From a virus: 23,365 nucleotides of DNA. Position numbers and translations under genes: made by a program. Positions 2,644 to 23,365 of the stretch are shown here, piece by piece. The stretch is taken from IMG/VR virus record IMGVR_UViG_3300021425_000197, positions 1 to 23,365 of that record. One strand, given 5' to 3'. Position 1 is the first letter of the stretch; each line of letters starts with the position of its first letter. The notes under the pieces were generated by a model. The model was not told the origin of the DNA. It searched no databases and saw nothing but the letters and a program-made list of their open reading frames with translations.

Positions 2644-2652
2644 TAAACCCAC

Positions 2653-2955: not shown

Positions 2956-2985
2956 AATTTCTCCTTTGTTATATATCCGATAAAC

Positions 2986-3059: not shown

Positions 3060-3063
3060 ACGG

Positions 3064-5824: not shown

Positions 5825-6526
5825 ATGTACGTACAGGATAACTTCATTACAGACCACGACTTGATAGAGGCCATCAAGCAGGACGAGACATTCTTCCCGC
5901 CTGTCATGGCCACCTTTGAAGATCGTGGAAGTCTTGGCGACTATCATGGACAGCAGTACCACAGCGAAGAGGCATCATGCTTCGCACCCTACATGTTCTG
6001 GGATGGCTGGTGGAACTCTCCTGCCGACACGCTCAAGAAGCAAGTCATTCAGGCCATCTGGCAACACCCTGACAAACGAGATTTTAATCTAGAAGATGTG
6101 ATTGGGTTTGAGTACTGGACACGAACTTTCGTCCCACCTCAGTACCTGCCGCACCACGTAGATGAAGACACGTTCCAATATGCTCACGATAAAACATTTA
6201 ATGCCCCCATCAGTGGGTGCATATGGTACGGCTTTACTGAAGCAGACGAAGGCGGGATGTTAGAAATCCACCGTCCCCGTATTGAAGGCTCTCCTCCAGA
6301 AGTCTTAGAAACCGATCATGTTAGCACATATCTAAGCCCGCCTGACGAAAGGGAACGCATCGCATACACGCCAAATAGATTAATTATTTTCGATGCTGGG
6401 CGCAGATTCCACCAGACAACAGTAGTTAAGTCAGGGACACGACAAGTGATGGTGGTCAACGTATGGCATAAAGATAATCCACCAATGGCACTCAGCACAG
6501 GAGAGTTTTACAGTGAAAGTACATGA
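5825..6526 (+). CDS. 2OG/Fe(II) oxygenase-like protein, 233 aa
   Basis: The double-stranded beta-helix iron site is readable: H111-V-D113 as HxD, distal H196 in RRFHQTT, and R206 ten residues later for the 2OG carboxylate. A Trp-rich N-terminal part (FWDGWWNS) and a long acidic insert (about 150-180) distinguish it from its neighbours. The family inserts oxygen into C-H bonds with decarboxylation of 2OG, and the substrate is unknown. It is the first gene of a four-oxygenase operon. It is leaderless by prediction, and its 3' end overlaps the next gene, whose GTG start has its own AGGAGAG. Bacteriophage 2OG oxygenases act on nucleobases, proteins or lipids, so a virion or host protein target is only one option. 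Confidence 0.75.
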   Translation: MYVQDNFITDHDLIEAIKQDETFFPPVMATFEDRGSLGDYHGQQYHSEEASCFAPYMFWDGWWNSPADTLKKQVIQAIWQHPDKRDFNLEDVIGFEYWTRTFVPPQYLPHHVDEDTFQYAHDKTFNAPISGCIWYGFTEADEGGMLEIHRPRIEGSPPEVLETDHVSTYLSPPDERERIAYTPNRLIIFDAGRRFHQTTVVKSGTRQVMVVNVWHKDNPPMALSTGEFYSEST

Positions 6527-7271
6527 ATTACAAGATAACGTTCTTTATATAGAAAATGCCTTACCAAACGCAGCAGAATTCATTGATCAAATAAACATTA
6601 ATGATAGAAATCACGAATTTTTTCGTGTTATCCCACCGTGGGACAACTGGTGGGATGGGTCGCCTGTAAAAACTGGGGACGGATGGCAGCAAGTATTTTC
6701 CTACGAAGACGGCCAACGCAGAGGGGTTGCTAAGCACTTTGACTGGGATGTAACAGAAAATAACCAAAATGAGGTGTGGCCTAGAAATAAAGTTACGCCT
6801 GACTTCAGTATAGCACACGCACATGCAAATAAAATTATAAACTTAATCGAACCCGACTACATCAAAGCCCTACAGGTGTGGGCTGACCTTACCGGTAACA
6901 CTATGCCAGAGTACATCACTAGAAACTACTGCCTACGTAAATACCGTACAGGTGCATCCATGGGAAAGCACATCGACAGAAACACAGACAATCCTAAAAA
7001 TACAATGGATTGGACGGCTCTACTGTACCTTAACGACGACTATACTGGAGGGGAACTGTTCTTTCCCGAAACAGGTATGAAACTATCGCCGTCGGCAGGT
7101 AGTATAGTGTTTTTACCATGCCTGCTTGAACACGCCTGTTTAGAAATAATGAGCGGAGAGAAGTATTACATATTTACATTTATGCACACGCAATACAGCA
7201 CAACAACCGCATTAGGTGAACCATATCATGCTCTTAATGAAGCCATCGACAAATTCAGGGGTGCGCAGTGA
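6513..7271 (+). CDS. P4H-like 2OG/Fe(II) oxygenase with Lys ligand, 252 aa
   Basis: Prolyl-4-hydroxylase-like catalytic core: H153-I-D155, the strand LLYLNDDYTGGELFF with the GGEL turn, P-x-AGS, distal H207 and K217. A Lys ten residues after the distal His is the arrangement of collagen prolyl 4-hydroxylase (family knowledge), whereas most relatives here have Arg. The N-terminal 140 residues form a helical substrate-side domain, also Trp-rich (WDNWWDG). The start is GTG at 6513 with AGGAGAG seven bases upstream, overlapping the previous gene by 14 nt. The stop overlaps the next start (GTGA). Confidence 0.82.
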   Translation: MKVHELQDNVLYIENALPNAAEFIDQININDRNHEFFRVIPPWDNWWDGSPVKTGDGWQQVFSYEDGQRRGVAKHFDWDVTENNQNEVWPRNKVTPDFSIAHAHANKIINLIEPDYIKALQVWADLTGNTMPEYITRNYCLRKYRTGASMGKHIDRNTDNPKNTMDWTALLYLNDDYTGGELFFPETGMKLSPSAGSIVFLPCLLEHACLEIMSGEKYYIFTFMHTQYSTTTALGEPYHALNEAIDKFRGAQ

Positions 7272-8128
7272 GTATTGAGCACTTAGGGACAGGTATCGTT
7301 AAAATTTCAAATGGGGTGACAATTCAGCCTGAAATTTTTCCGGCAATTGAGTCTCTAAGACAAGACGCACTAAACAATCACTACACCTACGTCTATGACG
7401 AAGAGGGTAATATTATGCACGCAACTAACTTAAGCGGTCATCGGTTCACACCAGAAGAACTAGATGCAAACTGTGTGAGAATAAACAACTTTCATGAACT
7501 TGAAGAGGAGTGGCAATCAGCATATTTTAGAAACTTAGAGACTGAAATATATGCCGCTCTTCTAAAATACGCAACACAGTTTCCTATGATTATCCCCTGC
7601 TTGTGGTGGAAAACAAAAGGACATGTACTCTCTTATAAACCCGGATCGGCATTGGGTCTTCATGCCGATAACGACATCAACTATCAGCCACATTATGAGC
7701 CTGATTACCAACTCGGAATCAAGCATGTCCTAGCGGCAATCGCCTATCTCAACGACGACTATGAGGGCGGAGAAATAGTTTTCCCATACGCAGGCGTGAC
7801 CTACTCCCCCAAAGCCGGGGACGTTCTACTCTTTCCAGCAAACTTTATTTGCGCCCACGAAGTCAAGCCAATCACCGCAGGCAACAGATACGCCTACCTA
7901 TCATACTTTGGACAAGGTTCCTCTGCGCCGGATTACGGGGTGACAATAATCGAAGATGACCACAACATCAACAGTGGTCAAGTATGGATGCATAACCTAT
8001 TCAAAGACTATGCAAACTACGTGAAATACAACGAACTTAGCGAAGACTTACTACTACCAATTCACAGAGCCTTTAACTCAACAGGCACACGAAAGGAAAT
8101 AAATCATGCAGAAAATGCCTCTAGTTAA
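7268..8128 (+). CDS. P4H-like 2OG/Fe(II) oxygenase, 286 aa
   Basis: Iron site H132-A-D134 (LGLHADND), core strand LNDDYEGGEIVFP, distal H197 in CAHEVKP and R207. The N-terminus (IEHLGTGIVKISNGV) and the CxWWKTKGHVLSY strand closely resemble the minus-strand paralogues at 8669, 9436 and 11157. After the core there is a GQG turn and a C-terminal tail with VWMHNLFKDY, a signature shared with those three. GTG start in a GTGA overlap with the preceding gene, with AGGGG upstream. Substrate unknown. Paralogy points to lineage-specific duplication with strand inversion. Confidence 0.85.
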   Translation: MSIEHLGTGIVKISNGVTIQPEIFPAIESLRQDALNNHYTYVYDEEGNIMHATNLSGHRFTPEELDANCVRINNFHELEEEWQSAYFRNLETEIYAALLKYATQFPMIIPCLWWKTKGHVLSYKPGSALGLHADNDINYQPHYEPDYQLGIKHVLAAIAYLNDDYEGGEIVFPYAGVTYSPKAGDVLLFPANFICAHEVKPITAGNRYAYLSYFGQGSSAPDYGVTIIEDDHNINSGQVWMHNLFKDYANYVKYNELSEDLLLPIHRAFNSTGTRKEINHAENASS

Positions 8129-8702
8129 TATCCCATACTTTTTTGGGCTAACAGAAGATGTTGACAATGAATTGATTGCACAACAAATCGAACAATATGG
8201 AGAACCCTGCGGAGACGAAACCCAACCGTGGGACGACCAAGACATTCTGCTACCGGACTCTCCAGAAATCAACGAATTACTCACTAGGCTTACACGGCTA
8301 GTGCAATACGCCGCAGAAGATCAAACTCTAGTTTTAAAATCGCAGTGGGCACTAAACTTGCAAGAAGGGAAGAGTGTAGGACCTCATTCGCACCACGCTA
8401 ACTTTCACATCTACCCTGAGGACTACTGGTCAGCAGTGTATTACCCAATCGCAGATGAAGACTCTGCCAAACTCATACTATCGGTAACTTGGTGCAACAC
8501 CGTACATAAGAATATCCACATACAACCACAGTCAGGAATGTACGTTATATTTCCTTCGTATGTTATGCATTGGACAGAGCGCCAGCAGTCACCTGAAACT
8601 AGACTTGTAATTGGTGCTAACTTTGACCCCGCAGAGCCTAACATGACACCGAACGTAGACTTCTCAATCTATGATCGGCGTCCGTCCATCGACCTTTCCT
8701 GA
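8106..8702 (+). CDS. 2OG/Fe(II) oxygenase-like protein (Oxy_5 type), 198 aa
   Basis: A compact beta-helix protein. W81 starts the core, followed by GPHSHHANF (H94, H96), the YWSAVYYP strand, PQSGMYVIFPS, distal H155 in VMHWT and R166. The order resembles the putative 2OG-FeII_Oxy_5 family (PF13759), whose members carry an H-x-H pair and an FPS-x-x-x-H segment. A cupin-type protein is the alternative. SD AAAGGA lies eight bases from the ATG, and the gene overlaps the previous one by 23 nt. Its last 34 nt overlap, antisense, the 3' end of the minus-strand operon, with no terminator between. Confidence 0.7.
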   Translation: MQKMPLVNIPYFFGLTEDVDNELIAQQIEQYGEPCGDETQPWDDQDILLPDSPEINELLTRLTRLVQYAAEDQTLVLKSQWALNLQEGKSVGPHSHHANFHIYPEDYWSAVYYPIADEDSAKLILSVTWCNTVHKNIHIQPQSGMYVIFPSYVMHWTERQQSPETRLVIGANFDPAEPNMTPNVDFSIYDRRPSIDLS

Positions 8703-9436
8703 CTGTCTGTAATTAGATCAGGCATCCAAATTCTAGGGCCTTCCTGCCCAACAACTTCATTGTTGCTAGTGTCAACACCGTAGCAGGCCATACTTAGAAA
8801 TGCGACACGCCTTCCAGATTCTACAGGATAGACTTCGTGACGGCCAACATAACTAGACGGGTATATGGCAACAGAGCCAGCCTCAGGAGCAAATGCTTGA
8901 CCGGCATGAGGGAAGTTAATTTCGCCACCGGTATAATCGGTTCCGCAGTTGTTTAGATAAAGGTTTATACTGGTGCTATTGTGCATTGACACTTGGTTCG
9001 GTGGAGCCTCGCCCCACTCAAAAGGAACCTGATCATCGCAATGAGGACCTATGTTCTGCCCTGCATCATACACAGCAACGTGACCTTGTGGTCGCCACCA
9101 AGCAGTCGTGGCCGCATCAGGGAAAATCTTACAGTACTCAACAAGGGCAAGGTACAACGCATCTTCGCAGGAGTCAACAAAGTCTAAGTACTTCTGAGGC
9201 ACTTCTTCATTACGATTCCGTCCACGGGTATCAAGGAACCGTTGGGGTGCCATACCGATATCCTCAATACTAAACTTGAATCCTGTCTGATTAACAGCAT
9301 GATCTTTTTCAAACTTGAAGGTTTGCTCAGATTGACCGGTCAACCAACCGCAGTATTCTGCAAAAAAGTCAGGATCAATGTCTAACACGTTACGACAAAT
9401 AACTACCCCCATGCCAATATGTTCTGATGTAATCAT
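8669..9436 (-). CDS. P4H-like 2OG/Fe(II) oxygenase, 255 aa
   Basis: Iron site H132-C-D134 in IGPHCDDQ, core strand with DYTGGEINFP, distal H200 in GRHEVYP and R210. Ser-His-Ile-Gly-x-Gly-Val-Val at the N-terminus parallels the 7268 gene. The C-terminal tail contains RIWMPDLITD, the shared WMxxLxxD signature. The start at 9436 is a TAATG junction with the upstream paralogue and has GGAGGG four bases before it. It is the last gene of the long minus-strand oxygenase block and converges with the plus-strand operon, overlapping its last gene by 34 nt. Confidence 0.85.
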   Translation of the reverse strand: MITSEHIGMGVVICRNVLDIDPDFFAEYCGWLTGQSEQTFKFEKDHAVNQTGFKFSIEDIGMAPQRFLDTRGRNRNEEVPQKYLDFVDSCEDALYLALVEYCKIFPDAATTAWWRPQGHVAVYDAGQNIGPHCDDQVPFEWGEAPPNQVSMHNSTSINLYLNNCGTDYTGGEINFPHAGQAFAPEAGSVAIYPSSYVGRHEVYPVESGRRVAFLSMACYGVDTSNNEVVGQEGPRIWMPDLITDSQERSMDGRRS

Positions 9437-10329
9437 TATCCCTCCGAATTAAGTAAAGTAGTACGATATTGCTCTGAGTTGTGGTCGTAGCCACGCTCAT
9501 CTAAAAATGCCCGATAATCTTCTCGCAGTGTAGGCATCCACACGTTAGTGCTGACTTCTGCCCCTTCTGGATTCTGTAGCGGGTCAACAACGTCTTCCCT
9601 TACAGCAGGGTTGGGAGTACCTTGAGAGTACCAGCCCAAGTACGACATTCTCCTACCCTTTCCGACGGGACGAACTTCGTGGGCAGCAACGTAATTGGAT
9701 GGGAAGAATATAATTGTTCCCGCTTCAGGAATAATCGGATCAATGTCTAAATAGTTAAAGTTATGCGTACCTTCAGTAAAGTTTCTACCGTCTAGTTCGG
9801 CTTCTGATACCGATGAGTTTAGGTATGTCACGTTAGACACGACATTGCGTAGTGCTAACTCTTGCGAAGTGCGATGAACTCCGTAGATGTACTCAGCGCT
9901 AATGTCTGAATGCGATCCGAGGTACACCCCATCTCCGTAAGACACTACGTGCCCTTTCACCTTCCACCACACGCAGTTGTACGCCAAAGGGTAACATGTA
10001 AAATACTTTAACAAACACGCATCTTTAGCCGCCTCTAGTTGAGTCAGCAACCCACGGACATCTTCCCGAGGGTTTAAGTGCAGTGATGACCCACGGCGGG
10101 GCATTGACTGATAAGTGTCAAGCCCGAACAAGTATCCACTTTTGTTCTCATAAGCAACCTCACCGGTTTCAGGATCGGTAACTTCAGTGTACATGCTCGC
10201 ATATTCTTCGTCTACTAAAACAGAAATTTCGTCATACACTTTGTCCCAGTCGCAGGAGACAGCATTGCGAAAAATAACTACGCCACCACCTAAATCTTCA
10301 GGCTCTGGATCGTTGTACTTGATAAACAT
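9436..10329 (-). CDS. P4H-like 2OG/Fe(II) oxygenase, 297 aa
   Basis: The N-terminus EDLGGGVVIFRNAV is nearly the same as in the 11157 gene. Iron site H140-S-D142 (LGSHSD), distal H217 in AAHEVRP and R227, then a GQG turn and tail NVWMPTLREDY. The strand holding YLN is followed by an acidic insert (SVSEAELDGRNF) where the shorter paralogues have DDY-GGE, so the usual GGE turn is altered. The ATG lies exactly six bases after TAAAAT of a TTGACA-N17-TAAAAT promoter and has no SD, so this pair of genes can be transcribed separately and leaderlessly from inside the block. Confidence 0.85.
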   Translation of the reverse strand: MFIKYNDPEPEDLGGGVVIFRNAVSCDWDKVYDEISVLVDEEYASMYTEVTDPETGEVAYENKSGYLFGLDTYQSMPRRGSSLHLNPREDVRGLLTQLEAAKDACLLKYFTCYPLAYNCVWWKVKGHVVSYGDGVYLGSHSDISAEYIYGVHRTSQELALRNVVSNVTYLNSSVSEAELDGRNFTEGTHNFNYLDIDPIIPEAGTIIFFPSNYVAAHEVRPVGKGRRMSYLGWYSQGTPNPAVREDVVDPLQNPEGAEVSTNVWMPTLREDYRAFLDERGYDHNSEQYRTTLLNSEG

Positions 10330-10335: not shown

Positions 10336-10364
10336 ATTTTACTGAAACAAATAATCGCTGTCAA
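10336..10364 (-). promoter_or_regulatory. Internal leaderless promoter
   Basis: On the minus strand: TTGACA (10359-10364), 17 nt, TAAAAT (10336-10341), six bases, ATG at 10329. The -35 and part of the spacer lie in the 3' end of the TauD-like gene, whose stop is at 10339-10341. Confidence 0.75.
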
Positions 10365-11160
10365 TGGAGGGGTGGCTACAGAAGTAACCTAAGAACTTTC
10401 GTTCTCCCGGCTTGAAACCGCCTGCAACAGCATGAGACATTACAAACAAATCACTTATGAGTAAGTCGCCAACTTCCCAGTTCCATGTTAACCTCTTCGA
10501 TGAATTGTAAACTATCTCTATCTCAATTGTTGCTACGTGCTGATGGAACTGTTCATGCTCAGATATGGTAGGCTCACGCCCATCAAAAGAAACCAGCCTA
10601 ATGTCTCCCTGACATATCCGCAACACTTCAACATCTTTAAAAGGATGTTTCTCTATTGCATTTCTATGGTTCACAGAAGTTAAATTACCTTTCATATCAG
10701 TAATCGCAGAACTAGAAATTACTGACTTTCTCATAAAGTCTATAACCTCTGCCGGTAAAAAATTAATTAACTTTGAATTGTCTCTAAAATAAGTCATCCC
10801 CACAGAAGATGGGCAATCAAACTTCAGCATATTCCAAAACCCCGCTACCGTAGAGTTTTCCAGTGAAGAAAAAACATGCTCTAAGTGCCAGTTTACAGAC
10901 AGGTCTTTCTCAGTATGCTCCTTATGTTTAAATGTGTGCGAGTGATCTTCCTCATACCGCCTTAGCAAACTTTCATCAAAATCAGCGTGTCTAGGCGTCC
11001 AACCTACGTAGTCACCAATAGCCAGAATAATATCTAACTGTTGTTCTTCCGTGGCGTGCAAACCACGTATACCGAAAACCCCATCGTGTAGAAACTTCCA
11101 AGCAAAGTATTCAGGGTCACGCATGACATCCGCATACGAGCAACGGACTACATCAATCAT
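10339..11160 (-). CDS. TauD/TfdA-like dioxygenase, 273 aa
   Basis: This oxygenase belongs to a different branch. The N-terminus (FLHDGVFGIRGLHATEEQ) is the typical TauD entry, the iron site is W91-H92-L-E94 (HxE rather than HxD), and the end of the core GDLLISDLFVMSHAVAGGF carries distal H243, followed by R254 eleven residues later as in TauD. TauD/TfdA enzymes hydroxylate small molecules such as taurine, gamma-butyrobetaine or amino acids (family knowledge). The substrate here is unknown. It starts in an ATGA overlap with the upstream P4H-like gene and ends inside the promoter of the next one. Confidence 0.85.
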   Translation of the reverse strand: MIDVVRCSYADVMRDPEYFAWKFLHDGVFGIRGLHATEEQQLDIILAIGDYVGWTPRHADFDESLLRRYEEDHSHTFKHKEHTEKDLSVNWHLEHVFSSLENSTVAGFWNMLKFDCPSSVGMTYFRDNSKLINFLPAEVIDFMRKSVISSSAITDMKGNLTSVNHRNAIEKHPFKDVEVLRICQGDIRLVSFDGREPTISEHEQFHQHVATIEIEIVYNSSKRLTWNWEVGDLLISDLFVMSHAVAGGFKPGERKFLGYFCSHPSIDSDYLFQ

Positions 11161-12224
11161 GATTCGATTGGTACACCGTCAGTTCCGCAGTTAGCCGAGT
11201 CATCTACCGTTTCAGCATCGTGAGTGGTACCGTACTGCGCTACACACCGGCCCTGATAGACAGGATTGATGCCAATGTTCTGCTCTTCGCCAGTGGAGAA
11301 TCGTGAATACTCTGACTTGCAATACTTTTCGTAGTCGTCGTAAATGTTGTTCATCCACATCGCAGGGCACCACTGATAACTGTCAGCAGGTTCAACAATG
11401 TTAATATTAGCCTCTTGGTGCGGGGAACCCTGACCGAAGAACGACAAATAACTGTAACGCACTCCGGCATCCATTCGGCTGACCTGATGTGAAGCCATAT
11501 AGTTCGTGGGGAAGAACACAATGTCGCCCTTCTTGGGCTTGTACTCAATACCGAGATGGAAGAACTCTAAAACGCCGCCAGTGAAGTTGGTACCGTCTAA
11601 CTCTTCCTCACTATCCACCGAGTCGTTTAGGTACACAAGACATCCGCAGGTCTGTCGTGCGGCCATCTGCCCACGAGGCATGTATCTGACCCCTTCAGTG
11701 ACTTTATAGTTTGTGTCATTGTCGCAGTGAGCGCCGAGGATGCCCTCGTCGGCGTAGCGAAGAATGTGTCCACGGTTCTTCCACCATACGCATCCAACAA
11801 TTAGGGGGAAGTAGTCGATGTAACGAATTAACGCCTTGTAAATAGTGTCTTCCATGTTGTGAAAGAACTCACGGGGAACGTCAGGCGTCTCTTCGGTAAC
11901 AGGGTGAAGTAGGCGTACAGGAGTTGCTGGAATATCTTCAGGGCGATAACGGAAGCCGTCTTCATTGATGCCGTACTTTTCGCCATCCTCGCCAACGATG
12001 TATTCCCATCTGTTTTGATGAGAAACTTCAGACTGTGCGTCAATGTACTTGAAAACTTCTTCGGTGTCACCCTTTACAGCGTTGCGGAAAACTAGTACAC
12101 CACCTCCCAAGTCCTCTACTTCAAACTCGCCAATTTCCTTGACGGCATCGTCATCAATTGTAGGAGTGTCAGGGTGCGGGTCACCACTACGCCAGTCTTC
12201 GGGCTGAATATTTTCGTCTGTCAT
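11157..12224 (-). CDS. P4H-like 2OG/Fe(II) oxygenase, 355 aa
   Basis: The longest of the set. An acidic N-terminal extension (residues 1-35) precedes EDLGGGVLVFRNAVKG. Core: CVWWKNRGHILRYAD, H166-C-D168, YLND with an acidic insert (SVDSEEELDGTNF), GGVLEFF, distal H246 in ASHQV and R256, GQG, then tail MWMNNIYDDYEKY. A C-terminal extension of about 50 residues with a few Cys follows. Most similar by eye to the 9436 gene. The start follows the stop of the methyltransferase-like gene (TAA-AATG) without a clear SD. The stop overlaps the TauD-like gene as ATGA. Confidence 0.85.
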   Translation of the reverse strand: MTDENIQPEDWRSGDPHPDTPTIDDDAVKEIGEFEVEDLGGGVLVFRNAVKGDTEEVFKYIDAQSEVSHQNRWEYIVGEDGEKYGINEDGFRYRPEDIPATPVRLLHPVTEETPDVPREFFHNMEDTIYKALIRYIDYFPLIVGCVWWKNRGHILRYADEGILGAHCDNDTNYKVTEGVRYMPRGQMAARQTCGCLVYLNDSVDSEEELDGTNFTGGVLEFFHLGIEYKPKKGDIVFFPTNYMASHQVSRMDAGVRYSYLSFFGQGSPHQEANINIVEPADSYQWCPAMWMNNIYDDYEKYCKSEYSRFSTGEEQNIGINPVYQGRCVAQYGTTHDAETVDDSANCGTDGVPIES

Positions 12225-14635: not shown

Positions 14636-15253
14636 TTAATAGTCAAGCACCTCGTCAATGCACTCACGGATTGTCCAACTCTCACCAGTAGTTAAAGGAA
14701 CATCATCTAGCGGGTCGCTCTGCCAATTAAACCGTGTAATCATCTGACCATCACGGCCAACAACAAACTTTTCCCAACTGTGAGAAATACGTGCAACCGC
14801 ACCTCCAGCCTTATTCCAACCTTCAAAAGCAGCCTCGGAAGTATCGGCAGGAGAAGCATCCTTAACCCGAACCACGTTTCCAAGCAACGCCGAATAAACT
14901 AGGCTAGCCTCTTTACCATTTACATCAATTTTTTCAGACATAGGGAAATTAACAAACGGATACGACTCTTTCATCCAAGCAGAAATTTCGCTATTGTCAG
15001 ACGGCTCCATTCGTCCAAACTGATTACACGGAAAAGCAACAACGCTAAAACCTCTGTCCTTAAACTCGTCATGTACTTGCTGTAACTGCCAGAACTGTCG
15101 GGTAGTGCGAGCAAACGACCAAAACGTACTACAGCGTGGAGTGTACCCCAACTTTGAAACTGTGTTAACAACGAGAGTAACCTTACCTTCAAACTGTTTC
15201 AAGAAGTTCGGATCGCCGTCAATTGAATTCATCTCAATGTCATAAATACTCAT
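14636..15253 (-). CDS. Glutathione-peroxidase-like protein without the catalytic tetrad, 205 aa
   Basis: GPx/thioredoxin-fold family: FEGKVTLVVNTVSKLGYTP (21-39), VVAFPCNQFG (71-80) with the conserved Q78, FPMSEKIDVNG (103-113), then SWEKFVVGRDGQMITRF. In active GPx the third segment has the peroxidatic Cys/Sec at the position of L35 here. Cys41 lies six residues later. The WN pair of WNF before the last core strand is replaced (H158-S159-W160). So of Cys, Gln, Trp and Asn only Gln remains clear. There is also an aromatic insertion at 43-57. Either C41 or C76 serves a new redox role, or the protein is non-catalytic. ATGA overlap with the 15250 gene. Confidence 0.75.
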   Translation of the reverse strand: MSIYDIEMNSIDGDPNFLKQFEGKVTLVVNTVSKLGYTPRCSTFWSFARTTRQFWQLQQVHDEFKDRGFSVVAFPCNQFGRMEPSDNSEISAWMKESYPFVNFPMSEKIDVNGKEASLVYSALLGNVVRVKDASPADTSEAAFEGWNKAGGAVARISHSWEKFVVGRDGQMITRFNWQSDPLDDVPLTTGESWTIRECIDEVLDY

Positions 15254-15561
15254 TGCTCACTCCAAGGGTGTGGATTGTCAGAAACCTTACCCTCAACTGG
15301 GCACGACAAAATAGGTTTACTGGTATGAGGGTCAAGTATCTCTACCGTCCCCGCCAGCATATCAGCAACTGGTGTACACTGGATACGCACCATGCAGTCG
15401 AAGGGCACGTTAGAGAATGCAGAAAGAACATAAGTTTCGTTCATCCGATTATATTCGGTAAACTCTAAACTACCTTTAAACATATGGGCACTACCGCAGT
15501 CATCTCCAGCAGGTAAATGTAAAAGAAACTTTTCATATCCTAACGGGGTGTGTACGGTCAT
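15250..15561 (-). CDS. Hypothetical protein, 103 aa
   Basis: Unrecognised beta-rich protein (KFLLHLPAGDDCG, SLEFTEYN, YVLSAFSNV, MVRIQCTP, GTVEILDPH) with Cys at 22, 56, 62 and 87. The start is ambiguous. ATG 15561 forms an ATGA overlap with the DUF6065-like gene, whereas an in-frame TTG at 15573 has a strong GGAGG seven bases upstream. I use the ATG because coupling is the rule here. It lies between the DUF6065-like and GPx-like genes and is probably co-translated with both. Confidence 0.7.
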   Translation of the reverse strand: MTVHTPLGYEKFLLHLPAGDDCGSAHMFKGSLEFTEYNRMNETYVLSAFSNVPFDCMVRIQCTPVADMLAGTVEILDPHTSKPILSCPVEGKVSDNPHPWSEQ

Positions 15562-16289
15562 TGCGTAAGCCAATTTGGAACCTCCGGTATTTCAGGGTCT
15601 TGCAAGTCTACCAAGCCGTCATGACGAGGGCCTATACGATTACCATCAGCGTCTAATCCAGTACGGATTCCGTTCATCCACGTCCAAGGCTCATCCTGCA
15701 TTTTTTGCATTTTTGCCTTGTTGTACTTCATCCGATCTTCCATTAGTTGAGGCTTATCCCACAAGTTCTCAACAGTACACTCTATGGTAGGCATTAAGTT
15801 AGTATCAAAAACAAAAAAGAATGCGAAAGGAGTCCCCTTTGGGAATACTACTTCTTTCCCCACCTCTGTAATTTTCCACGCCATCTGAACTTCGTCAGGC
15901 CACCAATCACTAGGAATAATGGCAGACAACGGGGTAGCGCCCTCCACAAAGTAGTTAGGGGAACCCGTAAGCCATGTGTGGTGACCTTCTTCAGTATTAA
16001 ACGCCCAACCCAACTGAAAATCGACCATGCCGATCTTGTTACAGTTCGCAACCATGCGATGATCGTGCTCGCCTCCTTCAATTAATGTAGGTACAGTTTG
16101 ACCACCATCCCATTTAACAACAACATCACAGGGAAGTAAAACTTCCCAGCCATTTACATTAGCCATTGTAATAGGTAAACACCGGTAGGCGTGCTTATTG
16201 TAGGTGTCATCCATCCAACCACGCCGCAAATCAGATTGTTGGACATGGGGAGATGCTTGGTGTGTTCTAACTAAAGTAAGTTTACTCAT
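15558..16289 (-). CDS. DUF6065-like protein, 243 aa
   Basis: The opening YRCLPITMANVNGWEVLLPC (from about residue 35), the middle with W-x-F/TGSPNYF-x-EG-x-x-PLSAIIPSDWWP, MAWKIT and KGTPFAFFFVFD match the DUF6065 pattern as I remember it, a family of unknown function found near oxygenase or modification genes. The C-terminal third is a Lys/Met-rich helix followed by a linker. ATGA overlaps at both ends. Its position between a P4H-like oxygenase and a GPx-like protein suggests a shared modification pathway, but no reaction can be assigned. The family name is recalled, not searched. Confidence 0.6.
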   Translation of the reverse strand: MSKLTLVRTHQASPHVQQSDLRRGWMDDTYNKHAYRCLPITMANVNGWEVLLPCDVVVKWDGGQTVPTLIEGGEHDHRMVANCNKIGMVDFQLGWAFNTEEGHHTWLTGSPNYFVEGATPLSAIIPSDWWPDEVQMAWKITEVGKEVVFPKGTPFAFFFVFDTNLMPTIECTVENLWDKPQLMEDRMKYNKAKMQKMQDEPWTWMNGIRTGLDADGNRIGPRHDGLVDLQDPEIPEVPNWLTQ

Positions 16290-17149
16290 GGCTGTACACC
16301 ATATTGGTAGGTATAGTTCGTATTACCTGCTTGTTGTTGAGCCTCCCAACTCGCTACAGCATACTTATGAATTTCTTCGTGAATAATTTGTCGTAACTGC
16401 TCTTCATCAAAACCAGCCACAATTGCCTGCCCACCGTCAGGGAACGAAGGCTTTGCAGGCTGCTCATTTGTTTGACCAAAATCTCTGGAAAAACCACCAT
16501 GCTTGTGTGCATCATCATTGTAATCAAACATCGTGACTGCTGAATACTTCACACCCTCTGTCACGGGAAGAGATGCATGGGCATAGATGTACGTAGACGG
16601 GAAAAAGATAGAATCCCCAGCCTCAGGCTTGTAAGTGATGTCTAACAGGGGGAAGTGCAACTCGCCGCCCTCGTAGTCATCATTAAGATACACAATATTA
16701 GAGACAGTGCAAATATACGAGAAGCCGTGGTCGGTATGAACGGCAAAATGTTCTCCGGGGCCATACTTAACAAAGTTTATTGCTTCCATGTAACGCATGG
16801 TGATGTTGTACATGCTCTGGTAGTGCTTCAGACCGTCGTTAATCCTAGAAGACACATCTGTGTAAACTCCAACAACCTCAGAAAACTCTGAAGGGGTGTT
16901 TGGGATGTACTCTTCAGCCATTTTAAAGTCTACACAGTCTCGGTACTCGGGCATCTTGACGCCTTCACCAACCAGTGAGTCGTGCCACTTGAAGTAATCA
17001 TGTTCACTGTCGTCCAACGCTTTATGTAGGCGAGTAGGGACATAATCTATCCCATCTAAACAATTCTTGTACACTACAATACCCAAATGGGGATCGCCAA
17101 TATACTCGTAGTTAAACTTTGACTCAGTGTTGTGATTACCGTAACTCAT
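16286..17149 (-). CDS. P4H-like 2OG/Fe(II) oxygenase with Lys ligand, 287 aa
   Basis: Core H138-T-D140 (FAVHTDHG), IVYLNDDYEGGELHFP, PEAGDSIFFPS, distal H191 in YAHASLP and K201 ten residues on. The Lys replaces the usual Arg, as in collagen prolyl 4-hydroxylases. After about residue 215 comes a non-catalytic Gln/Gly/Asn-rich extension with an amphipathic helix (EEQLRQIIHEEIHKYAV). The ATG sits six bases after the -10 of a TTGACT-N17-TACGAT promoter and lacks an SD, so it is predicted leaderless. It leads the subunit 17149 to 12226. A P4H activity on Pro-rich protein is the most natural guess. Confidence 0.85.
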   Translation of the reverse strand: MSYGNHNTESKFNYEYIGDPHLGIVVYKNCLDGIDYVPTRLHKALDDSEHDYFKWHDSLVGEGVKMPEYRDCVDFKMAEEYIPNTPSEFSEVVGVYTDVSSRINDGLKHYQSMYNITMRYMEAINFVKYGPGEHFAVHTDHGFSYICTVSNIVYLNDDYEGGELHFPLLDITYKPEAGDSIFFPSTYIYAHASLPVTEGVKYSAVTMFDYNDDAHKHGGFSRDFGQTNEQPAKPSFPDGGQAIVAGFDEEQLRQIIHEEIHKYAVASWEAQQQAGNTNYTYQYGVQP

Positions 17150-17155: not shown

Positions 17156-17184
17156 ATCGTATCAAACGTAGCGGGTGGAGTCAA
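17156..17184 (-). promoter_or_regulatory. Internal leaderless promoter
   Basis: On the minus strand: TTGACT (17179-17184), 17 nt, TACGAT (17156-17161), six bases, ATG at 17149. The -35 lies in the 3' coding end of the upstream oxygenase. Confidence 0.65.
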
Positions 17185-17734
17185 ATCTTTCAAGTACATG
17201 CCAAAAGGTAGTTGTGTTAAGCCGTTCACCTGATTCAATCTTGCCTACTTGATGAAGATAATATTCAGATGACGGGAATGCTACAAGGGTTCCTGCCTTT
17301 GGGAATATAAAAAGGTCTTGCTTTGCCATAAATAATTCCCCTCCAGTAAAGTCAACACCGTGGTTGTTGAAGTACAGTAAAGTTGAAATATCACGAGAAG
17401 GGTATCCTGAGTAAGTCTCTAAGTTGAGAGACTTGTCTTCAAAGTTATCTGAATGCATTTGTAGTTCCCACCCCGGAAGACCGCTAACAAGAGATGCGAG
17501 TTCTTCCTGACCCACAACGCATGAGTAGTAATCTTGAATAAAGGTTTTAACACTTAGTTTTAAATCGTCCATTAGGGGACGCAAAACGTCACTCTCTCCC
17601 ATTTGAATAAACTTATCATGCTCATGGCCAACTACATCGTAACGCTCTAACTTTGAAATTTCTTCAGTAAACACTGCCATTACATCAGGAGATATGAAGT
17701 TGGGTACAACTACTACACCGTCTTTCTCTTTCAT
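17162..17734 (-). CDS. P4H-like 2OG/Fe(II) oxygenase, 190 aa
   Basis: A compact core enzyme: VVVVPNFISPDVMAVF opening, iron site H94-S-D96 (LQMHSDNFED), LLYFNNHGVDFTGGELFM, FPKAGTLVAFPS, distal H161 and R171. No C-terminal extension. The frame extends to 17788, but the ATG at 17734 is in an ATGA overlap with the upstream oxygenase and gives the expected N-terminus. Of the set it is the closest in size to a minimal P4H domain. It forms a two-gene unit with the 17731 gene. Confidence 0.83.
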   Translation of the reverse strand: MKEKDGVVVVPNFISPDVMAVFTEEISKLERYDVVGHEHDKFIQMGESDVLRPLMDDLKLSVKTFIQDYYSCVVGQEELASLVSGLPGWELQMHSDNFEDKSLNLETYSGYPSRDISTLLYFNNHGVDFTGGELFMAKQDLFIFPKAGTLVAFPSSEYYLHQVGKIESGERLNTTTFWHVLERFDSTRYV

Positions 17735-18369
17735 GGCGTGGCTTCTCGCAAGTTTTCTACTACCGTGTAAAACGAGGGGGTAGTCCATCTTTCACCGCTG
17801 GTAATCGGGCGAACACCGTGCAGGTAGTTGCGGTCCCCAACAAACATTAACGCTAATCCGGGCTTGGGAGTAATTTCAATATCGTGCTGTGGGAAATACA
17901 GTTCACCACCAGTAAAATCATCGTTGTAGTAAAACAGTGAGTTTAAGTCGTAGGTTGGAAATGGATTCGGGCTACCATCGTTTAATTCTTTATCTGCGTG
18001 CGGCTGTTGCTCTATACCTTCAAACCATCGCATTAAAACAGGGGCACGCCCATAGACTTTAACATTGAAGAATTTTTCAACTTCGTTCGCCATTTTATCA
18101 ATGTATTTCTCAATGATGTTGTAGACTTGTGGATTTTTCCGATCAATAATAGGGCCGCTACACATCCGGTCATTCCAGTATGATGCATCATAAATGCACA
18201 CACCATTCTCGTCGTACTCAGTCTCTTTCCCATTTTCCCACTCGTCAATCGTGGGCAGGAATGCCTGAACTATTGATAAGTCATCAGGGTCGATAAAGTT
18301 CTCAAAAACAACAATGTTGTCAGAACTGTCCCCGTAGTAGCCTGATGGTATAATCGAAACTTCTTCCAT
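17731..18369 (-). CDS. P4H-like 2OG/Fe(II) oxygenase, 212 aa
   Basis: Opening NIVVFENFIDPDDL, iron site H124-A-D126 in QQPHADKE, SLFYYNDDFTGGELYFP, KPGLALMFVG, distal H184 in YLHGVRP and R194. All ligands of the class are present. It is the first gene downstream of the virion module, 39 bases after the PPxF-repeat gene, and has a leaderless promoter in that gap (TTGACG-N17-TAGAAT, six bases, ATG). This adjacency is the basis for suspecting fibre proteins as substrates. Confidence 0.85.
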   Translation of the reverse strand: MEEVSIIPSGYYGDSSDNIVVFENFIDPDDLSIVQAFLPTIDEWENGKETEYDENGVCIYDASYWNDRMCSGPIIDRKNPQVYNIIEKYIDKMANEVEKFFNVKVYGRAPVLMRWFEGIEQQPHADKELNDGSPNPFPTYDLNSLFYYNDDFTGGELYFPQHDIEITPKPGLALMFVGDRNYLHGVRPITSGERWTTPSFYTVVENLREATP

Positions 18370-18407: not shown

Positions 18408-19466
18408 TTACTTGAACGATGGCGGGAAGTAAGGTGGGAAGAATGGCGGGAAGAAAGGCGGAAAGAACGGTGGGAAGAACGGTGGGAAGAACGGTGGGAA
18501 ATAGGGCGGGAAATAAGGTGGGAAGAATGGCGGGAAGAAAGGCGGAAAGAACGGAGGGAAATAGGGTGGGAAATAGGGCGGGAAGAAAGGCGGAAAGAAA
18601 GGCGGAAAGAACGGAGGGAAATAGGGTGGGAAATAGGGCGGGAAGAACGGCGGGAAAAATGGGGGGAAGTACGGGGGAGCAACAGGAGTTTTGTTTCCCA
18701 GCGAGCCTACCTTACTATAAGAATCGTTGTACAGTACATATCGTGCTGAATATGTGGTTCCATTTGTTAAACCAGAGATAGTCCTAGTAGTTGCACCTGT
18801 GTACTCAAAAACATCATCGTAGGTCGGTGTGCCACCATCAAGAACATACATGCGCATATAGTACTTGCCGCCATATGCCGTGTAGTCGTCATTATCCTCA
18901 ACGCCAAAATCTTCTGAAGTGAAGTTGCTGCCAATAGTGAAAGTTATGGAGGCGTCATCCCCATCACTAGCACTAATAGTAGCACCAATATTTCCCGGCT
19001 CTACAACAGGAACAAAATAGTTGGTACTTTCATTAGCAATAACGCCCTGCCTAAAGTCGGCAGCAATACTAGCAGGCATAGCGCCCGCAATACTAGAAAC
19101 GTCAAACGTTTGGTAATCTGTCAGAATGCCTGTTGAGTCTTCGGCACGCCACTCAATTTTGTATGCTTTACCGGCCTTAAGAGTATACGCATTGCCAACG
19201 TTAGTGTAAGCGCCAACATTGACTACCTTATCGCTAGAAGAATTAATTAAAAACTCGTATACTACGGTTCCGGCAGTATCTTTGAACCTGAATCTAATAT
19301 TTACACTGCCGGTCTTTCCAAGACCTGCGCTATCCGTTATTGCACGCTTAAACGAAAAGGTTGTTTCATCAAAATCAGCAAAAGCAGGAGCGGCATAACT
19401 TACAAACTGTAGTTCTGCACCATAAAGGTCTTTTCCGCCCTGTCCTACATCTTTATTTATAGCCAT
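18408..19466 (-). CDS. Virion-associated protein with a PP(Y/F)F repeat tail, 352 aa
   Basis: Residues 1-130 are a beta-rich domain (MAINKDVGQGGKDLYG start). About 160-262 looks like a fibronectin III or Ig-like domain (SGLTNGTTYSARYVLYND). From about residue 264 to the end the chain is 22 consecutive tetrads: PPYF or PPFF in the order Y F F YYFFF YYFFF YYFFF FF Y, then PPSF and K. This is a low-complexity, extremely hydrophobic and Pro-rich tail of 88 residues. SD GAGGTG precedes the ATG, and the gene follows the 855-aa fibre gene by eleven bases. It is likely a fibre tip or decoration protein, though binding or assembly roles are unknown. Frame and codon use differ sharply in the repeat (GA-rich plus strand). 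Confidence 0.8.
   Translation of the reverse strand: MAINKDVGQGGKDLYGAELQFVSYAAPAFADFDETTFSFKRAITDSAGLGKTGSVNIRFRFKDTAGTVVYEFLINSSSDKVVNVGAYTNVGNAYTLKAGKAYKIEWRAEDSTGILTDYQTFDVSSIAGAMPASIAADFRQGVIANESTNYFVPVVEPGNIGATISASDGDDASITFTIGSNFTSEDFGVEDNDDYTAYGGKYYMRMYVLDGGTPTYDDVFEYTGATTRTISGLTNGTTYSARYVLYNDSYSKVGSLGNKTPVAPPYFPPFFPPFFPPYFPPYFPPFFPPFFPPFFPPYFPPYFPPFFPPFFPPFFPPYFPPYFPPFFPPFFPPFFPPFFPPFFPPYFPPSFK
18414..18677 (-). repeat. Tandem 12-bp/60-bp repeat coding PP(Y/F)F
   Basis: Twenty-two 12-bp units. Within them a 47-nt stretch (18541-18587) recurs exactly 60 bp away (18601-18647), and a block starting at 18431 recurs 84 bp away at 18515. The distances are multiples of 12, as expected from slippage or unequal exchange. 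The plus strand is GA-rich with regular GGG runs. Confidence 0.9.
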
Positions 19467-19477: not shown

Positions 19478-22045
19478 TCAGTCGGAAAGGTCACCCACAG
19501 CAACCCAAGTATTTGTGCCCCTCTTTATTAGTGTAGCAGAAGACCACTGATCACGCAACTTAAGACCCGGAGTACCATTAATAGTCACACCCGAACCCGG
19601 AGTAATAGTCGTCTGGCCAGCACCAGTCTGCAAAACAGTAATCTGAGTACCAACAGGATAAGCAACAGAAGAATTAGGAGGAACAGTCAAAGTGTTAGCC
19701 GAACCGACACCCATCTCAACCAACTTATCTTTATCAGCCAAAACAAGCGTATAACTCGCAGTCCGTGCATTCGTCTTCAAAGTAGACGAAGCAAACTCAC
19801 GCTGAGTAGAACCGTCACCAACAATAATCTTATCATTCGTGGAATCCCAAGCAATGCGTCCCTCCGAAGAAGAAGCAGTAGCCGAAAGCAGCGAAACTGC
19901 AACAGCCGTACCAAGTGCCGAAGCCGACAGCACAGAAGTGTTGTTAATGTAGAATGCTTTACCTGAAGCAAGGTCAATGTGTTCTGATGAAGTCCACGAA
20001 TCAGTAGCATCAACCCAGTTGAAGGTTTTATCTGTAGTTCCTTTAAGGGTAATGCCGCCACCATCAGCAGTTGTATCTGTCGGGGTACCTACAGAACCTA
20101 ACTCAATATTTTTATCATCTACACTGAGTGTGGTGGAGTTGACGGTCGTTGTTGTTCCGTTGACTGTTAGGTCACCGCTAACTATCAGGTTGTCGTCTAC
20201 TGTGACTGTGCCTCCGGCAGAGTCAATAGTTAAGTTACCAGTTGAGGTATCAATTTCGCTTGTAGCGGTAACCCCAATTTGAATATTACCTGCTGTGACA
20301 TTGCCTGTGACATTGCCCGTAACGTTGCCGGTCAGGTCACCTGTAACGTCTCCAGTTACGTTACCAGTTACGTTACCAGTTACGTTTCCAGTTATGTTTC
20401 CAGTTACATCCCCGGTTAGATCACCAGTAACGTTGCCGGTTAAATTACCTGTAACAGAAGTAGTTGTGATTACGCCAGTGCTAGGGTTATACGTCAACCC
20501 TACATCTGTTTCAATTCCCTGAGACCCTGTTTGGCCATCTACAAAAGTAAGATAGACAGTCTCGTCTGTAGAGTCGTTGGCGGTAGAGGTTACAGAAGTG
20601 GCTACATCAGCCGTGCCAGTCAAATCACCGGTCAAGTTGAACGCCGCATTTGACACAGTAGCGCTGTTAAGATTCACTGTGCCCGAGAACGTGGAAGTTC
20701 CAGAAGATGTAACGTTACCTGTCAAGTCGCCAGTGACATCACCAACAACACTACCAGTAAGTTGAGCGTCTGTACCGTCAGAACCGTTCTCTAAAATCTT
20801 GCTCGTTCCGTTAGACGCATAAACATCACCAGTTAAATCTCCGGTAACATTACCAGTCACATTACCCGTGACATTTCCATTTAAGTCGCCAGTAACATCA
20901 CCTGTCAGGTTGCCTGTAACGTTTCCAGTTACATTTCCAGTCACAGCACCCGTAACATCACCAGTCACATTACCAGTGAGGTTACCCGTAACATTACCTG
21001 CCACACTGCCGGTTAAATCGCCTGTAACATTACCCGTAAGATTACCAGTCACAGAAGTAGAACTAATGTTTCCCGTACTAGGATTGTACGTCAGTCCTGT
21101 ATCCGTTTCAACACCCTGAGTGCCTGTGTCACCATCAACAAACGTGATATAAACTGTTTCATCAGTACTGTTATTAGCAGTAACAGTAACGCTCGTCGCA
21201 ACATCTGCTGTACCTGTAACATCACCAGTCACATTGCCAGTCACATTGCCAGTCAAATCACCCGTAACATCACCCGTCACATTACCGGTGAGATTGCCCG
21301 TCACATTTCCTGTAACATTACCTGAAACATTACCTGTCAAATCACCCGTAACATCACCAGTCAAATCACCAGTAAACGCAGTAGACGTAACAGCCGACAA
21401 ACCAGTCAACGTAGCATCAAGATTAATCGTGTTACCAGTCTTCGACAAATTCGTGCCAGCAACAACAGAACTCACACCAGAAAACTGAGTGTAAGTTAAA
21501 GAATCCGTACCAAGCGTATGAACCTCACCCGTGCCAGTGCCCTCAGACGTGAGAATAAAACCCTGATTAGAATTATCAGAACCACCCAAAACCCACGTAG
21601 CATCACCAGCATACAAACTCGTGTCATTATCAGTAGCACGAGTCAACACATACGCAGTTGAACCATCACCCTGAGTCGTAACAGTATAAATGCCGTTCTG
21701 CGCAGCAGCAGCCTGATTCTTAACAAGAACCCTATCACCAGCCGTACCATTCACACCATCAACAACAATACGGGCATTAGAGCCAGCCGTCAATGTGGCT
21801 CCAACGCCAGAAGAACCATTGTCATACGTGGGGGAATTAGGTAGTGCAGCCGCCGTCGCTAAGTCCACAGCCTCGTTCCAGCGCACACCGGTTTCAACAG
21901 TTGAGTCCACGTAGTCTGTTGTTGCAATACGATCAGAAGCGTTACTAACCACGATAGACCAGTATGTTCCGTTCCATTGCCATGTACGGTTGCTGACTGT
22001 GTGGGTGTCGTTTACGGAGGGGGAATCTGGGAAATCAATAGCCAT
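19478..22045 (-). CDS. Tail fibre with TG(N/D)(V/L) repeats, 855 aa
   Basis: The N-terminus (MAIDFPDSPSVNDTHTVSNR then WQWNGTYWS) is a common tail-fibre attachment element. Residues 55-190 are a receptor-type domain (DGVNGTAGDRVLVKNQ, NGIYTV). Tetrapeptide repeat blocks TG(N/D)(V/L) lie at about 225-278, 332-408 and 531-584, consistent with a trimeric beta-helix or spiral shaft. A 65-residue module (TSVT-TAN-STDETVY-TFVDG) occurs twice, at about 284 and 483. Residues 615-700 (SVDDKNIELGSV, GGGITLKGTTDKTFNW) are familiar from marine phage fibres, and 757-855 is a C-terminal tip domain ending in TLIKRGTNTWVAVGDLS. It starts in a TAATG overlap with the S74 gene. Confidence 0.88.
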   Translation of the reverse strand: MAIDFPDSPSVNDTHTVSNRTWQWNGTYWSIVVSNASDRIATTDYVDSTVETGVRWNEAVDLATAAALPNSPTYDNGSSGVGATLTAGSNARIVVDGVNGTAGDRVLVKNQAAAAQNGIYTVTTQGDGSTAYVLTRATDNDTSLYAGDATWVLGGSDNSNQGFILTSEGTGTGEVHTLGTDSLTYTQFSGVSSVVAGTNLSKTGNTINLDATLTGLSAVTSTAFTGDLTGDVTGDLTGNVSGNVTGNVTGNLTGNVTGDVTGDLTGNVTGNVTGDVTGTADVATSVTVTANNSTDETVYITFVDGDTGTQGVETDTGLTYNPSTGNISSTSVTGNLTGNVTGDLTGSVAGNVTGNLTGNVTGDVTGAVTGNVTGNVTGNLTGDVTGDLNGNVTGNVTGNVTGDLTGDVYASNGTSKILENGSDGTDAQLTGSVVGDVTGDLTGNVTSSGTSTFSGTVNLNSATVSNAAFNLTGDLTGTADVATSVTSTANDSTDETVYLTFVDGQTGSQGIETDVGLTYNPSTGVITTTSVTGNLTGNVTGDLTGDVTGNITGNVTGNVTGNVTGDVTGDLTGNVTGNVTGNVTAGNIQIGVTATSEIDTSTGNLTIDSAGGTVTVDDNLIVSGDLTVNGTTTTVNSTTLSVDDKNIELGSVGTPTDTTADGGGITLKGTTDKTFNWVDATDSWTSSEHIDLASGKAFYINNTSVLSASALGTAVAVSLLSATASSSEGRIAWDSTNDKIIVGDGSTQREFASSTLKTNARTASYTLVLADKDKLVEMGVGSANTLTVPPNSSVAYPVGTQITVLQTGAGQTTITPGSGVTINGTPGLKLRDQWSSATLIKRGTNTWVAVGDLSD
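20294..20455 (-). repeat. TG(N/D)(V/L) tetrapeptide repeat block, C-terminal
   Basis: Degenerate 12-bp units (plus strand: variants of ccagttacgtta) coding about 13 tetrads of the fibre shaft. DNA identity between units is high locally, suggesting recent slippage. Confidence 0.8.
20822..21052 (-). repeat. TG(N/D)(V/L) tetrapeptide repeat block, central
   Basis: The longest of the three shaft blocks, about 19 tetrads with occasional substitutions (SVAG, GAVTG, DLNG). Same unit as the flanking blocks. Confidence 0.8.
21212..21373 (-). repeat. TG(N/D)(V/L) tetrapeptide repeat block, N-terminal
   Basis: About 13 tetrads just before the first copy of the duplicated 65-residue module of the fibre. 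Confidence 0.8.
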
Positions 22046-23365
22046 TAGTTAGCCTCCAATGCTTCTATGCGGTCAGTCAACGAATCAATCTGAGCCTGTT
22101 GACGTTGCACTACACTGATGAGATGCGGCACTAGACGGTCGTACTGTACGCCTTCTGGCTCAGACAGACACTCTTTAGTATGTTCCAAATGTTCACCCTC
22201 TGGGGCAACGCAGGAACAGTCTGGTGATGAGCCGAAGTGGACTAGACGAGGATCAACTTCGGCAACCTCTTCAGCAATCAAGCCGTAAAAAGAATAACCT
22301 TCAGGCTCGTTGCCAGTAGTAGATCGATACCAAACGGGGCGAAGATCAAAAATGATGTTTGCGTGTTCTTCGTCAATGGTTTCAATATCAGTTTTGTATT
22401 TTGCTGACGAAGTGGATCGCATTATCTGACCTGAAGATAAGATCACCATGTTTGCGCCAGCAGCATTAGTGTCGTTGTAAACAGCGGTCATGTAGAGTGC
22501 GCCGTCTGAGCGCATAAACCCATGACGAGTGTTGTTCGTCCAGAACTCTAAATAGTTGTTATTGACATTGCCTATCATTACGGCATCACCGCTCAAAGAA
22601 CCTGTGCCACCCTTGCGTAAAGCCCAAGAGGACTGTGTGCCCGAGCGTTCAAACCCATAACCAAGATCCCCCGTGTCTGCAAGAATCATCCCATTTACAT
22701 GCAATTTTTCTAGAGGCGCCGTTGTACCGATACCGACATTTCCAGACGAGTCAATCGCCCCCCTGTCAGTCCCACCAGTCCTGAAGTACATTTTGTCTGC
22801 GCTGTGCTGATAACGGAAGCCGCCCTGAGCCGATGCGTCAGAATCACCAAACCGCAAATAGCCGTTACCAGTCGTGGACGAATACACGGCCATGCCAGAG
22901 TCGGACGCTTCGCCTGAGTCAGCAATAATCATGTGCGATGTCGGCACGGACGCAGGAGCCGCAGATGTGCCTATCTGGACATGCAGTTTGTTATCAGGTG
23001 CCGTTGTACCGATACCGACATTTCCAGACGAGTCAACAGTTACACGATTATCACCGTTCGTTCGTATCTGAAAGTCATCACCGCTAGAACGCAACACCAC
23101 GTTGCTCGTAGTGCCAGCATCAGCAAGAATAATGCCAGAGGTGGACTGACCGGACTGCACTGACAGCGGAAAAGCATTATCTGTGTAATTTGCAACGATG
23201 CGCCCCCGTACATCTAGGGCTTGTCCGGGTGTTGTTGTGCCGATACCGACATTGCCAGACGAATCAATAATCATCCGCTCCGAACCGGCAGTATCAAAAC
23301 GAATATTATCCTCATCCGCAGACTCCTCAACCTGAATCTTCGTATCCTCATCCAAATCCGTAATA
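22045..23365 (-). CDS. Tail fibre/spike with peptidase S74 chaperone domain, 5' end outside window
   Basis: The frame is open to the window edge, so this is a C-terminal part of at least 439 aa. The apparent TTG at 23355 lies inside a typical TKIQVEESADEDNIRFDTAG motif. Three copies of SSGNVGIGTT(T/A)P mark a repeated beta-structured stalk. The C-terminal 120 residues are an intramolecular chaperone (S74): SSAKYKTDI, with Ser and Lys five apart as in the autoproteolytic dyad, then FDLRPVWYR, YGLIAEEVAEVDP, and QYDRLVPHLISVVQRQQ leading into a coiled coil. The family trimerises the fibre and cleaves itself off (established for endosialidases). An unusual Cys/His-rich insert (CSCVAPEGEHLEHTKEC) lies inside the chaperone. 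Confidence 0.88.
   Translation of the reverse strand, partial: ITDLDEDTKIQVEESADEDNIRFDTAGSERMIIDSSGNVGIGTTTPGQALDVRGRIVANYTDNAFPLSVQSGQSTSGIILADAGTTSNVVLRSSGDDFQIRTNGDNRVTVDSSGNVGIGTTAPDNKLHVQIGTSAAPASVPTSHMIIADSGEASDSGMAVYSSTTGNGYLRFGDSDASAQGGFRYQHSADKMYFRTGGTDRGAIDSSGNVGIGTTAPLEKLHVNGMILADTGDLGYGFERSGTQSSWALRKGGTGSLSGDAVMIGNVNNNYLEFWTNNTRHGFMRSDGALYMTAVYNDTNAAGANMVILSSGQIMRSTSSAKYKTDIETIDEEHANIIFDLRPVWYRSTTGNEPEGYSFYGLIAEEVAEVDPRLVHFGSSPDCSCVAPEGEHLEHTKECLSEPEGVQYDRLVPHLISVVQRQQAQIDSLTDRIEALEAN
22718..22754 (-). repeat. 37-bp exact repeat, copy 1
   Basis: Identical to 23000-23036. Both encode the SSGNVGIGTTAP stalk motif of the S74 fibre. Nucleotide identity beyond what the protein requires suggests recent duplication or gene conversion. 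Confidence 0.85.
23000..23036 (-). repeat. 37-bp exact repeat, copy 2
   Basis: Exact copy of 22718-22754. A third, diverged copy lies near 23231-23270. Confidence 0.85.

Follow-up and report, generated by a model that had tools for sequence, protein, structure and literature searches.

PP-aromatic arrays, tandem repeats of Pro-Pro-aromatic-Phe units on probable viral surface proteins, are linked to islands of prolyl-4-hydroxylase-type 2OG-Fe(II) oxygenase genes, a linkage that is new here. Such tails occur in hundreds of otherwise unstudied aquatic viruses, and on the surface proteins of aquatic phages the arrays apparently form a widespread class of repeat that has yet to be described. Because the tails almost always lie near clusters of prolyl-hydroxylase-like genes, the array is a good candidate substrate of these puzzling viral enzymes. 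The array from which the analysis is described lies in a window of 23,365 bases, which is a whole virus record and probably comes from a bacterial virus of an aquatic setting.

The window array forms the C-terminal part of a 352-aa protein, in which it follows a short KDVGQGGK-type N-terminus and two predicted FN3/Ig-like domains. Translation of the open reading frame confirmed the 22 predicted Pro-Pro-aromatic-Phe tetrads at the C-terminus, which fill residues 264–351 as 13 PPFF, 8 PPYF and, in final position, one PPSF; a single Lys then precedes the stop codon. Tyr occupies tetrads 1, 4, 5, 9, 10, 14, 15 and 21, so the predicted five-tetrad YYFFF super-period is real, with three clean copies at tetrads 4–18, but irregular at both ends. 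At the DNA level, the array matched itself at 84% at a lag of 60 compared with 72–79% at the other multiples of 12, and TRF run on the window DNA reported a 60-bp unit. The super-period is local, however, and the Tyr pattern was rejected as a common structural feature: as relatives have other orders, often a 3-tetrad YFF, and 40 arrays share no super-period, it is a lineage-specific duplication with no structural rule behind it.

No family or structure covered the array in Pfam, PHROG and PDB searches, and a PDB query with the array alone was also empty, in agreement with the original prediction that it matches no nameable class. The window protein as a whole was likewise unmatched in Pfam, PHROG, PDB and phage isolates, its one PDB hit (E = 0.49) not being significant. 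An AF2 model, weak in this region with a pLDDT of about 50–60, gave the array no regular secondary structure, and Foldseek found that the N-terminal part of this low-confidence model resembles tandem FN3 domains.

A pattern scan of IMG/VR, following the proposal to search viral metagenomes for (PP[FY]F)n proteins, yielded at least 120 loci with strict tetrad arrays and at least 120 loci with a second format of (A/S/G)PPxFF hexads. Far from being a one-off, the array is a recurrent module with two formats and many carrier proteins. The hexad format, (A/S/G)PP(G/S/A/...)FF, was first met in loci fetched by an oxygenase motif, and its carriers have the layout NIGxKxxAQDNFIGP-FN3-FN3, in several cases with a Hint-like domain at the C-terminus. 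Searching with residues 1–261 of the window protein retrieved one relative (L121) that is 83% identical and bears 13 tetrads instead of 22, and two (L122 and L123) that are 28% identical, all three ending in arrays. Library scans of other array proteins against Pfam and PHROG named the families of the flanking domains, which in 59 array proteins were FN3 (PF00041; 33), PASTA (6), He_PIG (3), Hint (3) and S74 (1), and array proteins also drew tail and virion PHROG matches. The domain that comes after an array is in some proteins Hint, S74 or Cys-rich. Arrays were terminal in 54 cases, 39 of them ending in Lys, mostly as PPxFK, and were followed by more protein in 65, so that an array is not always at a tip, where the original prediction had placed it.

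Several carriers have further features of their own. A Hint-like (hedgehog/intein-type) domain stands straight after the array in L500, L540, L477, L532, L006 and L050, where it could act in cleaving or attaching the end of the array. In L041:1085-1762 a PASTA-like N-terminal part precedes the array and an S74 chaperone domain follows it, and L141, L134, L014 and L010 encode PASTA-like phage proteins carrying or ending in arrays; the usual ligands of PASTA domains are fragments of the cell wall. Phage isolates searched with the window protein, with the FN3-type, PASTA-type and hexad-type N-terminal parts and with array DNA gave no match, the BLAST low-complexity filter limiting the array searches. 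A bacterial origin was rejected, since 85,000 bacterial genomes gave 11 pattern stretches, of which 4 were true arrays, in viral-looking or mis-binned MAG contigs. A literature search for the strings PPYFPP, PPFFPP and PFFPPFF returned, among the matches listed, only unrelated peptides and proteins.

The array gene starts 11 bp after the gene for an 855-aa fibre-like protein, which itself follows a tail-fibre gene with an S74 chaperone domain (Table 1). This S74 gene and the PHROG tail-fibre/virion matches upstream bear out the fibre-cluster setting of the array gene, and from gene context, the neighbouring tail-fibre genes and the FN3-like domains, the array protein is probably a virion protein. 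Three 2OG-Fe(II) oxygenase genes follow in a row directly past the array gene, and five further PF13640 proteins are encoded beyond them; a thioredoxin gene also lies in this oxygenase region.

Table 1 Features of the window around the array gene and its oxygenase region
Feature	Position	Strand	Evidence or remark
Array protein gene	18408..19466	(-)	ORF, 352 aa
22-tetrad array Pro-Pro-(Tyr/Phe/Ser)-Phe with terminal Lys	18411..18677	(-)	60-bp super-repeat mid-array
Fibre-like 855-aa protein, (V/L)TGN/D-rich repeats, only 12 Pro	19478..22045	(-)	PHROG tail-fibre/virion matches
Tail-fibre protein with Peptidase_S74 (endosialidase-type chaperone) at its C-terminus, truncated at the window end	22045..23355	(-)	PF13884 E = 4.5e-7, PHROG tail fibre
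2OG-Fe(II) oxygenase, start 38 bp past array gene	17731..18369	(-)	PF13640 31.0 bits, above cut-off
2OG-Fe(II) oxygenase	17162..17788	(-)	PF13640 44.1 bits
2OG-Fe(II) oxygenase, top PDB match B. anthracis prolyl 4-hydroxylase	16286..17149	(-)	PF13640 45.3 bits
DUF6065 protein, found repeatedly in array loci	15558..16289	(-)	PF19541 E = 4.8e-44
Glutathione-peroxidase-like gene	14636-15253	(-)	
2OG-Fe(II) oxygenase	11157..12224	(-)	PF13640
TauD-type 2OG dioxygenase	10339..11160	(-)	PF02668
2OG-Fe(II) oxygenase	9436..10329	(-)	PF13640
2OG-Fe(II) oxygenase	8669..9436	(-)	PF13640
Putative 2OG-Fe(II) oxygenase, other subfamily	8106..8702	(+)	PF13759
2OG-Fe(II) oxygenase	7268..8128	(+)	PF13640
2OG-Fe(II) oxygenase	6513..7271	(+)	PF13640
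Four tRNA genes Thr(tgt), Arg(tct), Trp(cca), Ser(tga)	2492-3148	(-)	

The window's eight PF13640 proteins all exceed the curated cut-off of that family, each with over 27 bits, and share an invariant HxD...H triad (H138, D140 and H191) and a distal basic residue, Arg or Lys, after an invariant Gly. In a PDB search, the oxygenase at 16286-17149 matched 3itq, the B. anthracis prolyl 4-hydroxylase (E = 2.6e-6), 5hv0 and, weakly (E = 0.005), the prolyl 4-hydroxylase 5c5t, the chlorovirus enzyme, and the oxygenase at 17162-17788 had no match in PDB. The substrates of prolyl hydroxylases are extended chains rich in proline. Relatives of the window oxygenases are labelled ‘ferrochelatase’ in Synechococcus phage ACG-2014f records (H22 onward), and PHROG 2297/274, named ‘DNA endonuclease’, matches the window oxygenases; both labels are probably misannotations. 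DUF6065 is present in 37 of 123 array loci (e.g., L086, L064 and L047) and 0 of 120 control loci, and possibly belongs to the same island as the array and the oxygenases; its AF2 model (pLDDT 67) is weakly dUTPase-like. The glutathione-peroxidase-like family occurs in 20 array loci and no control loci.

The original prediction had drawn no connection between the array and the 2OG-Fe(II)/prolyl-hydroxylase genes close by; these genes are the strongest clue to the chemistry of the array. PF13640 was present in 46 of 50 array records, often in 5–11 copies, and in 3 of 45 control records, which were chosen by the S74 tail-fibre motif and all lack the array (Fisher p = 1e-18), counts that are inflated by physical linkage and shared ancestry since the contigs are fragmentary and partly redundant. 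The four array records with neither PF13640 nor PHROG 61 are all fragments of at most 38 kb. With an HMM made from the window's own oxygenases and their hits, we counted 318 oxygenases in 1074 kb around tetrad arrays (2.96 per 10 kb) and 291 in 974 kb around the independently fetched hexad loci (2.99 per 10 kb). By contrast, the controls gave 2 in 1129 kb for S74 loci (0.02 per 10 kb), 0 in 967 kb for PFPF loci (0.00), and 3 in 1087 kb (0.03 per 10 kb) and 0 in 412 kb (0.00) for two terminase sets. Of the 125 PF13640 domains in the 18 array records with a length of 50 kb or more, 88 lay within 10 kb of an array, compared with 38.6 (sd 9.7, maximum 70 in 2000 rotations) under a rotation null. 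The linkage also held in the reverse direction, as loci fetched by the oxygenase motif often carry PP-aromatic arrays and TerL and S74 loci carry none.

The large terminases of array records are of at least two unrelated kinds. A T4-like terminase clade comprised 22 records whose terminases are 78–100% identical, 10 with and 12 without an array. The array-plus records held 5, 8, 6, 6, 8, 2, 6, 7, 0 and 6 PF13640 domains, whereas the array-minus records held 0, 0, 5, 0, 0, 0, 1, 2, 0, 0, 0 and 0, so that five or more domains were found in 8 of 10 compared with 1 of 12 (p = 0.0015); in the two low array-plus records, the array sits within about 2 kb of the contig end. A second terminase clade, with 26 records and about 1.5 Mb, had no arrays and only 6 PF13640 domains. 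Array and oxygenase island tend to come and go together, with fragments and physical linkage contributing to the pattern.

Taking these observations together, we propose that the array is a proline-aromatic low-complexity module on the fibre or adhesin proteins of the virion surface, here a tail after FN3-like domains, whose Pro-Pro pairs would be hydroxylated in the infected cell by some of the phage 2OG-Fe(II) oxygenases of the same island. Hydroxylation may lock the array into an extended polyproline-II (PPII)-like rod and tune its hydrophobicity, and as a stiff or sticky tip, or as a spacer when internal, the array could bring the virion to cell or particle surfaces. We give this proposal about an even chance; hydroxylation, PPII shape and virion location are each inferred from the arrays and their genomic setting, and the adhesive role is a guess drawn from parallels with the hydroxyproline-rich proteins of plant cell walls and with the foot proteins of mussels. 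Among the adhesive, membrane-inserting and PPII rod functions first suggested for the array, an extended PPII-like rod that serves in adhesion remains the preferred guess, membrane insertion being suggested by the composition only. Against hydroxylation, 5–11 oxygenase paralogues seem many for one simple repeat. A literature search for a phage prolyl hydroxylase combined with a proline-rich fibre found no such paper, nor, among the papers searched, a reported phage substrate. More tentatively, and with less than even confidence, the arrays might be an unnamed class of hydroxyproline-rich phage surface polymers, PPII rods or adhesives made by dedicated multi-enzyme prolyl-hydroxylase islands, a phage counterpart of the plant hydroxyproline-rich proteins, and a main reason why many aquatic phages carry many 2OG oxygenases beside fibre genes. 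A concrete candidate substrate, physically linked to the oxygenase genes, can now be named, and phage surface proteins are seen to bear an unnamed proline-aromatic repeat class with a possible use as an adhesive or rod that can be genetically encoded. Even if the hydroxylation idea fails, this repeat class remains, as does its linkage to the oxygenases.

A serious competitor, although we think it somewhat improbable, is that array and enzymes merely share an adhesin island, in which the oxygenases modify something else, such as collagen-like fibres, FN3 loops, Asp, Asn or Lys side chains, glycans or host molecules, and the array is an unmodified passenger. Immediate array-oxygenase adjacency was rejected (42 observed and 47.5 expected, with no excess beyond the regional density), which fits a passenger, as does the presence of the lysyl hydroxylase LH3 among the weak PDB matches of the oxygenase at 16286-17149. 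Collagen-like tracts, a classical substrate of prolyl 4-hydroxylases, occur in 12 of 123 array loci (e.g., L034) compared with 0 of 120 and 1 of 111 control loci, so that other proline-rich fibres are competing substrates. Cyanophage S-SCSM1 has 24 2OG oxygenases, for which an effect on host 2-oxoglutarate metabolism has been predicted instead (PMC9602691). Our search of this isolate genome found no PP-aromatic array, which means that such enzymes have other substrates and that arrays cannot be the sole one. Its virion protein gp19 (L550, record 23462-31273) contains a (Pro-Arg)n run, another proline-rich candidate substrate. However, the enzymes are present in nine of every ten array records, at equal density around two independently searched formats, collagen-like genes are found in only a tenth of the loci and not in the window, and no other stretch of the window's fibre cluster approaches the array in proline content, the array having 44 of the 75 prolines of the three proteins.

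Less probable still, and in our view unlikely, is an unmodified hydrophobic tail that binds surfaces and interfaces, whose Phe and Tyr would stick to membranes, cell walls or particles while Pro prevents sheet aggregation. The composition suits this function, the array and its Lys counting 43 aromatic residues and 44 Pro in 89 residues, with the last Lys as sole charge. Across arrays, the third tetrad position accepts Tyr, Phe, His or Trp, as a physico-chemical role would allow, and copy number varies from 3 to 39 units. Yet such a tail leaves the oxygenase islands unexplained, more arrays are internal than terminal, and the Kyte-Doolittle mean of the window array is only 0.14. We regard as distinctly improbable an assembly element that bundles chains as a trimer glue or spacer, or drives condensation on the virion surface, with no part in host contact; arrays do join folded domains in many proteins, including the S74-chaperone protein of L041 and the Hint-tailed proteins, but about half of them are free C-terminal tails and the collagen signature is absent from the array.

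An assembly error, a non-coding repeat or a wrong frame could be suspected from a single contig of low-complexity DNA, in which the antisense frame of the array gene is also open. In the 21 PP[YF]F units of the window, however, the first two codon positions were invariant apart from the Phe/Tyr base, whereas third positions were highly diverse, and 1150 units from 140 distinct arrays on separate contigs gave nearly the same pattern, with His also present. As variation is almost confined to third positions and the Phe/Tyr base, the codon pattern indicates that this reading frame is under selection, and non-translation through a frameshift, named at the outset as what would overturn the prediction, was rejected. 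A 36-nt array pattern holds about 51 bits, which is beyond chance, and a composition control also speaks for the true frame, (PP[FY]F)x3 lying in the longest frame in 106 of 127 cases and the permuted (P[FY]PF)x3 in only 7 of 81. The codon-position pattern of the 140 arrays refutes an artefact in the main, and we consider it hardly credible.

Among known systems, the extensins and PRPs, hydroxyproline-rich proteins of the plant cell wall, resemble the array in being surface proteins with tandem Pro-rich, Tyr-bearing repeats and, putatively in the case of the array, PPII-like rods, and they are made where prolyl 4-hydroxylases act, as the array is encoded amid P4H-type genes. The defining motifs of extensins are Ser-Pro(3-5) and, in many cases, Tyr-X-Tyr (PMC4769139). 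By contrast, the array belongs to a phage and has no Ser followed by 3–5 Pro, consisting of PP[YF]F units except for the last PPSF, and no Tyr-X-Tyr, its Tyr residues being spaced by at least 4 residues. Mussel foot protein 1, an adhesive animal protein, has decapeptide repeats with Pro-Pro, Tyr and hydroxylated prolines, but differs in its Lys, Ser, Thr and DOPA and has no Phe-rich tetrads. The chlorovirus PBCV-1 prolyl 4-hydroxylase and the cyanophage ‘2OG-Fe(II) oxygenase’ genes (PHROG 61) belong to the same superfamily as the window oxygenases; they are known as enzymes, to which the arrays now add a linked candidate substrate. Array carriers share FN3, He_PIG or PASTA domains with the structural Ig/FN3 and PASTA decoration domains of phages, families that lack the PP-aromatic tail. 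The collagen-like (Gly-X-Y)n fibres of phages and bacteria likewise combine tandem proline-containing repeats in fibres with P4H-type partners, but the array has no Gly, a period of 4 or 6 instead of 3 and no triple-helix rule, and a search of the window for a Gly-X-Y tract found none. By its defining motifs the array is neither extensin nor collagen-like, and its likeness to these hydroxylated proteins may be one of function.
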